64,000 nucleotides of DNA from Patiria pectinifera (lineage: Eukaryota > Echinodermata > Asteroidea > Valvatida > Asterinidae): positions 15,084,643 through 15,148,642 of the forward strand of contig CM057140.1 of assembly GCA_029964075.1 (NCBI GenBank). Reading direction: 5' to 3'. A program made the translations under genes and the position numbers. Below are positions 18,068-20,739 of this stretch, piece after piece (the stretch's first letter is position 1; every line of letters begins with the position of its first letter). The notes below the pieces were generated by a model, which saw nothing but the letters and a program-made list of their open reading frames with translations, was not told where the DNA came from and made no database searches.

Positions 18068-20739
18068 ATGGTAGGTTTCTCAGAGATTATGTAGAACCAT
18101 TCGGGTGTTTTGTAGTGGAGTGTAAAACGTGTATTTTTTAAAGATTTGTGGTCGGTGTTTGCAGCCGGCGCGGCGCGAACTTTCCATACAACCATTGCGA
18201 CCGTTGCGATGCGAGCCATTGTTGGCAATGTTTGCTCAAGATAATAATCGGGCATTTTGATTGGTTGGCATGGTCACGTTGCTCGATGCATGCCCGGTAC
18301 GTGGCACCACATTTCGCAACGGCTTAGCATAACCGTCTGGCGTGGTTTAATTTGAAAGCCCGCTAAAATCCACTGTCCGTTTAGAATAAGTAGTAGTACT
18401 TGTATGCAATTTTCGTTTATCGTGATTAATTGAAAAAAAAGGTCTGAATTTTATTCCTGTGCGATGTTGTTTTTGCACCTGCTTGTTGGCAACTTAAAAG
18501 CAGATCATAATTCATTTAATTGATTAATTCTGCCTTTTTTTAACATCTTAAATTTAATTTTGTAAATGTAACTTAGAGTAAGATAAGAATTAGTGTTCGT
18601 GGAAACTTGAAGTGAATATAATATTTCACTGCCAAATTGCATACCATGTTTTGCCAGACAGTGCCAGATATTTAACTTGCATATATAAGAACTTGGATTT
18701 TTTTCTTGAATTTAAAAATGGGAAGTACATATTTTGGCTTTTATAAAATTTAACGTTTCTGATAATTCGTTTTTGCTTTCAAAATGAACATGATCATGAT
18801 ATGAAAAAAAATATTTAATAATTGAAATAGGTTCTTTTATGTTTTACAGTTTCTCCATATTTCTCCAAATCCAATAGTGTCTTTTCTAGCGTGAATGCAC
18901 TTCAGTCCATATGTCAGTCATTGTCAGTCTGCATTTTCTCGTTAAACCCTCCTTTTTTATCTTAAAACTAGTATAAACACATGTAATTTTTTTTAAACTT
19001 AAAACTATAATGAGAAACAACTTTTCTATATTATTATATTTTAAGATGTACATTTTCAAACCTTCAGGTTATCAACACTGTTACTTAAATTCTCATAATT
19101 GAGGGATTAAAACAATTTTTTTAATATAAAAACACATTCCTAACGGCACGGACAAAACAATGAAAGGCTTCTGTGAGGTAGAGGCTCTGAATAACAGGAT
19201 GTTTGATATTCTTCCTTTCCAGCGTGAATGTATCTCTATCCATGTCGGCCAGGCCGGAGTCCAGATGGGCAATGCCTGCTGGGAGCTGTACTGCCTGGAG
19301 CACGGCATCCAGCCTGATGGTCAGATGCCCAGTGATAAGACCATCGGTGGTGGTGACGACTCCTTCAACACCTTCTTCAGCGAGACCGGCGCTGGCAAGC
19401 ACGTCCCCCGTGCCGTCTTTGTCGATCTTGAGCCAACTGTAGTGGGTAAGATTTTCCAAACGCTGATCCTCAATTTAATTATTTTCATTTAAACTGCTTT
19501 TCTGAAAATGTGTGACAGTTTGAAAGAAAAATCGTTTCCCAAAGATAATCTTCAAGACATATCATTGTAATTTTCATTGTTATTGATGGTGTCATCATCT
19601 ATTTTGCAGATGAGGTTCGTACCGGCACCTACCGCCAGCTCTTCCACCCTGAGCAGCTGATCACAGGCAAGGAAGATGCAGCCAACAACTATGCCAGAGG
19701 CCACTACACTGTTGGCAAAGAGCTCATTGACCAAGTGCTTGACAGAATCCGCAAGTTGGCTGACCAGTGCACAGGTCTCCAGGGTTTCCTCATCTTCCAC
19801 AGCTTCGGTGGAGGCACTGGCTCTGGCTTCACATCCCTGTTGATGGAGCGTCTATCCGTCGACTACGGCAAGAAGTCCAAGCTGGAGTTCGCCATCTACC
19901 CTGCCCCGCAGATCTCCACTGCAGTTGTTGAGCCCTACAATTCCATCCTGACCACCCATACCACCCTGGAGCACTCTGACTGTGCCTTCATGGTCGACAA
20001 CGAGGCTATCTATGACATCTGTCGTCGCAACCTCGACATCGAGCGTCCGACCTACACCAACCTCAACCGTCTGATCGGTCAGATTGTGTCCTCCATCACT
20101 GCATCTCTTCGCTTTGATGGCGCACTCAATGTCGACTTGACCGAGTTCCAGACCAACTTGGTGCCCTACCCACGTATCCACTTCCCCTTGGCCACCTACG
20201 CCCCTGTCATCTCTGCTGAGAAGGCCTACCATGAGCAGCTGACCGTTGCAGAGATCACCAACGCCTGCTTCGAGCCGGCCAACCAGATGGTGAAGTGCGA
20301 TCCCCGTCATGGCAAGTACATGGCCTGCTGTCTGCTCTACCGTGGTGATGTTGTTCCTAAAGATGTCAACGCCGCCATAGCAACCATCAAGACCAAGCGC
20401 ACTATCCAGTTCGTGGACTGGTGTCCAACTGGCTTCAAGGTGGGCATCAACTACCAGCCACCCACCGTCGTGCCTGGCGGTGATCTGGCCAAGGTGCAGC
20501 GTGCCGTCTGCATGCTGAGCAACACCACGGCCATTGCAGAGGCCTGGGCTCGTCTGGATCACAAGTTTGATCTGATGTACGCCAAGCGTGCTTTCGTCCA
20601 CTGGTACGTGGGAGAGGGTATGGAGGAGGGTGAGTTCTCTGAGGCTCGTGAGGATCTGGCTGCCTTGGAGAAGGATTACGAGGAGGTCGGTGTCGACTCT
20701 GTTGACAACGAGGGAGAGGAAGAAGGCGAGGAGTACTAA
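18068..20739 (+). CDS. TUBA: T4: alpha-tubulin, complete, mosaic first intron
   Basis: Exons 18068-18070 (ATG only), 19223-19445 and 19610-20739 (stop TAA); 451 residues, no codon-125 intron. Exon 2 starts after TTTCCAG with [12 protein letters not shown]. Lys40, GGGTGSG, Glu254 and the GEEEGEEY tail are present. The protein is nearly identical to T5 (visible change NAAIATIK versus NASIATIK). The promoter, 5' UTR (CCACTCTATAACCATGG) and early intron match T5/T6, but the last roughly 250 bp of intron 1 match T9. A decayed exon 2 start sits between them at 18890. It is therefore a recombinant gene that stayed functional. The 3' flank is homologous to that of T5. Confidence 0.96.
18840..18920 (+). 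pseudogene. decayed start of an alpha-tubulin exon 2 inside T4 intron 1
   Basis: After TTTTCTAG, CGTGAATG and TCAGTCCATAT (18890-18911) match the start of a real exon 2, and in frame read RECTSVH before similarity is lost. About 50 bp upstream also align with the 3' end of T6 intron 1 (ACAGTTTCTYCAT, AAATCCAA). It is a broken duplicate of a splice acceptor and exon start. If used as an acceptor it would give a short wrong product. Confidence 0.75.

Follow-up and report, generated by a model that had tools for sequence, protein, structure and literature searches.

Intron 1 of the tubulin gene T4 is supported by sequence comparison as a mosaic, in which the relic of an old exon 2 start marks the junction between an intron of T5/T6 type and an intron tail of T9 type. 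We consider it likely that this scar was left by one-sided ectopic gene conversion, in which a break inside an exon would have been repaired with a sister gene as template at one end and by end joining at the other.

Ten tubulin genes, T1 to T10, are arrayed in the window, i.e., the whole 64-kb stretch of DNA analyzed, and two of them, T7 and T8, lie on the minus strand. T2 to T10 share a layout of an ATG, intron 1, exon 2, intron 2, and exon 3 (Table 1). T4 is an alpha-tubulin gene: its exon 3 matched Pfam PF00091 and PF03953 (the tubulin GTPase and C-terminal domains) above the cutoff, and alpha-1A/1B chains were its best matches among solved structures. T4, T5, T6, and T9 each have an open coding sequence with one terminal stop, and the coding exons of T3 to T10, which are 86 to 97% identical to one another, appear to have exchanged sequence. 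At the array edge, T1 (1193-2227) is a strongly diverged tubulin that still matched both tubulin domains. A probable eleventh gene, T11 (62902-64000), cut by the end of the window, is suggested by an ATG directly followed by GTAAGT and by a leader ending in catcatc as that of T9; the visible part of its intron 1 matched neither the T4 patch nor T9 intron 1. The stretch CGTGAATG after the CAG at 61800 was judged a chance occurrence, being without a tubulin continuation.

Table 1. Positions of the T4 and T6 segments and of their relatives in the window
Feature	Position	Strand	Basis or remark
T4 upstream region, T5-type only	17627-17819	+	17627-17739 80% to T5 23401-23515; 17788-17819 91% to T5
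T4 5′ UTR, T5/T6-type	17977-18067	+	17977-18283 71% to T5; 17981-18273 69% to T6
T4 exon 1, coding part (ATG)	18068-18070	+	Donor GTAGGT next; the same ATG and GTAGGT in T5, T6
T4 intron 1 start, T5/T6-type	18071-18283	+	Local alignment, 120-nt windows
T6-like piece of T4 intron 1	18408-18458	+	84% to T6 33658-33708
T5/T6-type intron end with relic acceptor at 18889	18804-18889	+	Shuffle test, alignment, acceptor score −1.5
Relic of old exon 2 start	18890-18917	+	Probe scans, alignment; about 28 nt
Junction interval outside the matches on both sides (26 nt)	18918-18943	+	Bounded by flanking matches
T9-type intron 1 tail with predicted working acceptor 19222	18944-19222	+	0/500 shuffles for T9, no other gene; left limit soft
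T4 exon 2, complete, T5/T6-type	19223-19445	+	97.3% to T5, 95.1% to T6, 93.3% to T9
T4 exon 3, alpha-tubulin	19610-20739	+	Pfam domains, structure matches, coding-site comparison
T4 3′ UTR and flank, T5-type, partly T6-type	20740-21384	+	BLAST, 120-nt windows
T6 intron 2: complete T5-type intron, old acceptor 35059	34904-35059	+	T5 1-151 to T6 1-156, 77%
Old exon 3 relic ATGA and two extra bases CA	35060-35065	+	T6 junction
T7-type intron 2 tail in T6, predicted working acceptor	35066-35126	+	61/61 aligned bases identical
T7 intron 2 tail, probable source of T6 patch	42589-42651	−	Tail identity with T6
T9 intron 1 tail, nearest donor relative within window	53357-53611	+	Local alignment

The relic reads CGTGAATGCACTTCAGTCCATAT at 18890 to 18912. 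When the window was scanned with two probes for the exon 2 start, it was the only non-exon site with 3 or fewer mismatches in 18. A relic-shaped pattern with up to 3 mismatches gave eight matches, seven of them at real exon 2 starts, against 0.00 expected, a flattering expectation because the pattern was designed after the relic had been seen. The exon part of the relic agreed with T2 and T3 at 20 of 24 positions (scores of 34 and 28) versus 17 of 24 for T5/T6 (score of 17). The original prediction of a T5/T6-type exon 2 start at 18890 was therefore right about the relic and about the T5/T6-type acceptor region directly ahead of it, but its exon part lies nearer to T2/T3. Nucleotides 15 and 16 are AG in the relic, T2, T3, and T10, TA in T4, T5, T6, T8, and T9, and TG in T7; as a suggestion from these two sites only, the relic may retain an older state that has since been overwritten in the working exons.

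The sequence leading up to the relic is of T5/T6 type. For the 110 nt before it (18780-18889), none of 500 shuffles reached the score obtained with the acceptor region of T5 or with that of T6, and T3 was the next nearest of the remaining genes (7/500); the T9 acceptor region and T4's own real acceptor region gave no match (414/500 and 429/500 shuffles, respectively, reached the score). T4, T5, and T6 are collinear in the alignment across the acceptor into the exon. Consistent with the prediction of an old acceptor left behind in intron 1, a T5/T6-type intron end thus precedes the relic. Further upstream, T4 18072-18400 scored 107 against intron 1 of T5 and 88 against that of T6, versus maxima of 33 and 35 in 60 dinucleotide shuffles, with the match covering 18072-18283, and each of the seven other comparisons scored within its own shuffle maximum (60 dinucleotide shuffles). 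Another piece matching T5/T6 was found at 18804-18863. The likeness of T4 to both genes is clear from about 17980 onward. The claimed T5/T6 origin of the promoter, 5′ UTR, and early intron 1 accordingly held for the latter two, but only in part for the promoter: the windows at 17627-17819, similar to T5, had no match in T6, and the core promoter windows at 17840-18019 reached the threshold for neither gene (z up to 4.7, for T5).

The relic acceptor at 18889 is decayed, as judged from a scoring model built from 18 acceptors of this array, in which it scored −1.5 versus 13.5 for the real acceptor (leave-one-out). Of the 3,246 AG sites on the plus strand, about 20% score as well, and an AG at 18849 in the same intron scored higher (9.7). 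We infer splicing at 19222 from the complete reading frame. If the relic acceptor were used and the following sequence retained, translation would stop after 29 residues.

Beyond the relic, the affinity of the intron changes to T9. The 19041-19222 segment scored 52 against T9 (0/500 shuffles) versus 26 against T5 (122/500) and 24 against T6 (185/500), and is therefore nearer to T9, as predicted; in our alignments, the four motifs named in the original prediction are collinear between T4 and T9. Likewise, no shuffle of 500 reached the score of 18921-19120 against T9, the match joining T4 18944-19099 to T9 53357-53519, and T9 was the only one of eight intron tails matched. Intron 1 of T8, of T10, and of the visible T11, considered as alternative donors, gave no match to the T4 patch. 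The T9-type tail has a soft left limit: 18921-19040 alone, compared with T9 under a stricter scoring, was not significant (score of 28, shuffle maximum of 33), an extension anchored at 19120 scored 12 against a maximum of 13 in 60 shuffles, and the windows 18860-18979 and 18920-19039 matched no gene. The junction, expected near 18920-18950, was found between 18918 and roughly 18943-18980, and because of the soft limit microhomology at it is unreadable.

In the best-aligned part of the T4/T9 tail, 20 of 92 bases differ, so that this tail appears old; the T4/T9 and T6/T7 distances were taken from local alignments, which biases them low, and they support only "old" for T4 and "recent" for T6. The age of the tail also fits a reading that we find very improbable, namely, that selection on a regulatory element has preserved the T9-like tail as an old intron end in both T4 and T9, with the relic being an unrelated partial duplication. 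However, the T5/T6-type intron end collinear just ahead of the relic indicates that the T4 lineage had another end, and T6 and T7 show a similar arrangement with an identical tail. A search of Rfam in 15000-40000 gave no match at the gathering score, which does not support a described structured RNA as the cause of tail conservation and is neutral on an undescribed element.

Downstream of the patch, T4 returns to the T5/T6 type. Among the informative coding sites, at which T5 and T6 agree and T9 differs (exon 2 plus nucleotides 1-1080 of exon 3), T4 was T5/T6-like at 26 of 29 and T9-like at 3, and at nucleotides 21 and 24 of exon 2 it carries the bases of T5/T6, not of T9. In a profile of 120-nt windows (60 single-base shuffles each), T5/T6 was matched by 12 of 21 windows upstream of the junction and 8 of 10 in the 3′ flank, with T9 at 0/21 and 0/10, and from 18860 on T9 was matched by 3 of 5 and T5/T6 by 0 of 5. 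A BLAST search with the 3′ flank found T5 and T6, not T9. For T4 intron 2, local alignment scores were reached by 22/200 shuffles for T5, 5/200 for T6, and 45/200 for T9, and acceptor-anchored scores by 1/100 for T5, 17/100 for the T6 old acceptor, 15/100 for T9, and 1/100 for T7, with no clear affinity to any one gene.

Since T4 is of T5/T6 type again downstream, the T9-type sequence is a patch of about 280 nt and not the near end of a crossover onto a T9-type gene. The original prediction of unequal recombination joining a T5/T6 promoter to a T9-type remainder, in which everything downstream, flank included, should still be of T9 type, was not supported by the T9-like counts of 3/29 coding sites and 0/10 flank windows. 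An alternative that we regard as unlikely is that a T5/T6-type front was fused to a T9-type back by unequal crossover or deletion and that later conversion restored the T5/T6 type. It accounts for the junction and the relic as described, and the likeness and apparent sequence exchange of the T3 to T10 coding exons would favor such a restoration. However, the 3′ UTR and flank are of T5/T6 type to about 21384, so that noncoding flank would also need replacing, and the fusion does not account for a twin scar in T6, which matches the inverted gene T7.

This second scar emerged from an all-against-all survey of the 18 introns of T2 to T10 and the stretch upstream of T7, with T1 set aside, in which T6 intron 2 was the sole further case beside T4 intron 1. 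The 20 nt ahead of its old acceptor are identical to T5. The T6 and T7 tails differ by 2 nt in the length of a T run (98.3% identity over 59 nt when ungapped), and the first 21 nt of the T6 tail, with 3 mismatches allowed, were found elsewhere in the window only in T7. Judged from this identity, the T6 scar is recent. Bases 14 and 23 of T6 exon 3 are of T4/T5 type, not T7; the T7 tract therefore reaches 13 nt or less into the exon, which fits a break at nucleotides 4 to 13 of exon 3. Because T7 is inverted relative to T6, about 5 kb apart, simple unequal crossover cannot account for this scar. The relic acceptor of T6 ranks second in its intron (8.2 versus 13.0 for the working one; 1.1 without the identical T5 acceptor in the model), and for this reason a part of the T6 transcripts is predicted to be lost to mis-splicing; where it is used, translation would stop after 78 residues. 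In exon 2 of the same gene, sites 186-191 (34866-34871) are of T8/T9 type, not T4/T5, with Cys65 versus Ala in T4 and T5. This looks like an ordinary short conversion tract, and conversion looks active elsewhere in the array.

The order of the segments and their likeness to other genes can be read directly, and from them we infer the break, the direction of copying, and the end joining. In the one-sided conversion that we favor, a double-strand break would have struck exon 2 of a T5/T6-type gene about 28 to 54 nt from its start; it is placed there, and not in intron 1 where the junction event had been predicted, because exon sequence precedes the junction. The right-hand end, with the remaining exon 2, would have used exon 2 of a T9-type gene as its pairing partner, with extension leftward through the missing exon 2 start and about 280 nt of T9-type intron 1. 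As the new strand would no longer have matched the left-hand end, it would have been joined to the old exon 2 stub by end joining. The product would consist, as observed, of the old intron, the old acceptor, the exon 2 stub, the donor-type tail with its acceptor, and a complete exon 2, in this order, with the reading frame kept and T4 intron 1 longer by 333 nt. The intron 2/exon 3 border of T6 has an equal build, with a T7-type tail and two extra junction bases. One homologous end and one non-homologous junction are indeed found, the left side being a stub against an intron tail and the right side merging within the homologous exon. At the non-homologous junction, the CA of T6, between ATGA and the T7-type tail, is a candidate for added bases; in T4, where age obscures the junction, a 26-nt interval with a soft limit lies at this place.

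Several points count against this mechanism or its breadth, namely, the exon part of the relic, nearer to T2/T3 than to T5/T6, the lack of a clear affinity in T4 intron 2, the soft left limit of the tail, and the number of scars, only two known, both in one array. In addition, since the T4 exon 2 start is of T5/T6 type at nucleotides 21 and 24, the model needs either later homogenization or a donor that lacked the bases of T9. Relatives of T9 and T7 may have served as donors in place of these two genes, and a third gene beyond the window could be the source for both T6 and T7 or for both T4 and T9. It is quite unlikely, in our view, that no double-strand break took place and that template switching during replication put a copy of a T9-type intron tail and exon start into exon 2. 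Such switching would yield the same product as one-sided repair, and sequence alone cannot separate them; however, the return switch would have to land in register within the homologous exon in T4 and T6 both, whereas an in-register return comes free with homologous pairing, both being points of argument and not of test.

As a tentative extension of one-sided conversion, breaks at exon edges in tandem genes may be healed repeatedly with the exon start and intron tail of a sister, which would supply a new acceptor, save the frame, and leave a decoy. If so, the introns of the array would lengthen and their 3′ ends would change stepwise, and in fresh scars such as that of T6 both acceptors would be competent for a time, with use of the upstream one leading to a stop after 78 residues.

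Other rearrangements were also observed in the array. Upstream of T7 (44285-46165, minus strand), the region ahead of T10, its exon 1, and the beginning of its intron (56342-57694, plus strand) recur as an interrupted inverted copy, 95 to 98% identical by piece. In addition to its own ATG at 43663, T7 thereby has another possible first exon, with an ATG at 45469 (minus strand). A 514-nt insertion in this copy (44908-45421) is missing from T10; it is flanked by repeats of TTTAA, has AGGGAA...TTCCCT termini, and looks like a small DNA transposon. Intron 1 of T2 (4490-5018) and intron 1 of T5 (24958-25488) have a repeat in common (534 columns, 90% identity), probably a mobile element.

Ectopic gene conversion in tandem families transfers a short stretch between paralogues and leaves both flanks of the recipient type. 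A short paralogue transfer between recipient-type flanks is likewise found in T4 (T5/T6, T9, and T5/T6 in order) and in T6 (T5, T7, and T4/T5 type in order from intron 2 into the start of exon 3). Ordinary conversion, however, replaces sequence without net gain, whereas the events in T4 and T6 would have added it, the recipient's old acceptor and exon stub persisting upstream of the tail in both. The scars also resemble break repair that changes intron content, except that no new intron is seen in T4 or T6; an existing one gains a second tail and acceptor. A possible route is thereby suggested by which introns of tandem families lengthen and gain decoy acceptors with the protein preserved, and its signature, an old acceptor, an exon stub, and a foreign intron tail, is simple and searchable genome-wide. 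Among the literature matches listed, drawn from open-licence full text, none described a scar of this kind, whether for tubulin arrays or for intron tails, which is weak evidence of absence.

Two described systems come close in part. In the maize allele P1-rw1077, a truncated P1-wr-like exon absent from the transcript was ascribed to gene conversion (PMC3014980). A truncated exon remaining after exchange between tandem paralogues is common to both cases, but the maize event involved large repeats and retroelements, and the event here an intron tail that is tens to hundreds of bases long. In mouse embryonic stem (ES) cells, gene conversion that ended beyond homology was closed by microhomology joining or base addition (PMC5104497). 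Such coupled homologous/non-homologous repair is like the scars described here, with homology at one end, copying past it, and end joining at the other, and the two extra bases CA at the T6 junction fit the base addition of that system. That work concerned induced breaks and long tracts in cultured cells, whereas those in the gene array are evolutionary traces, and the tails of about 280 nt in T4 and 61 nt in T6, each carrying a splice acceptor, are unlike its long tracts. One-sided repair, known from induced cellular breaks, would here be caught twice in a natural array, where the flanks reveal the patched gene, the type of the template gene, and the end joined without homology.
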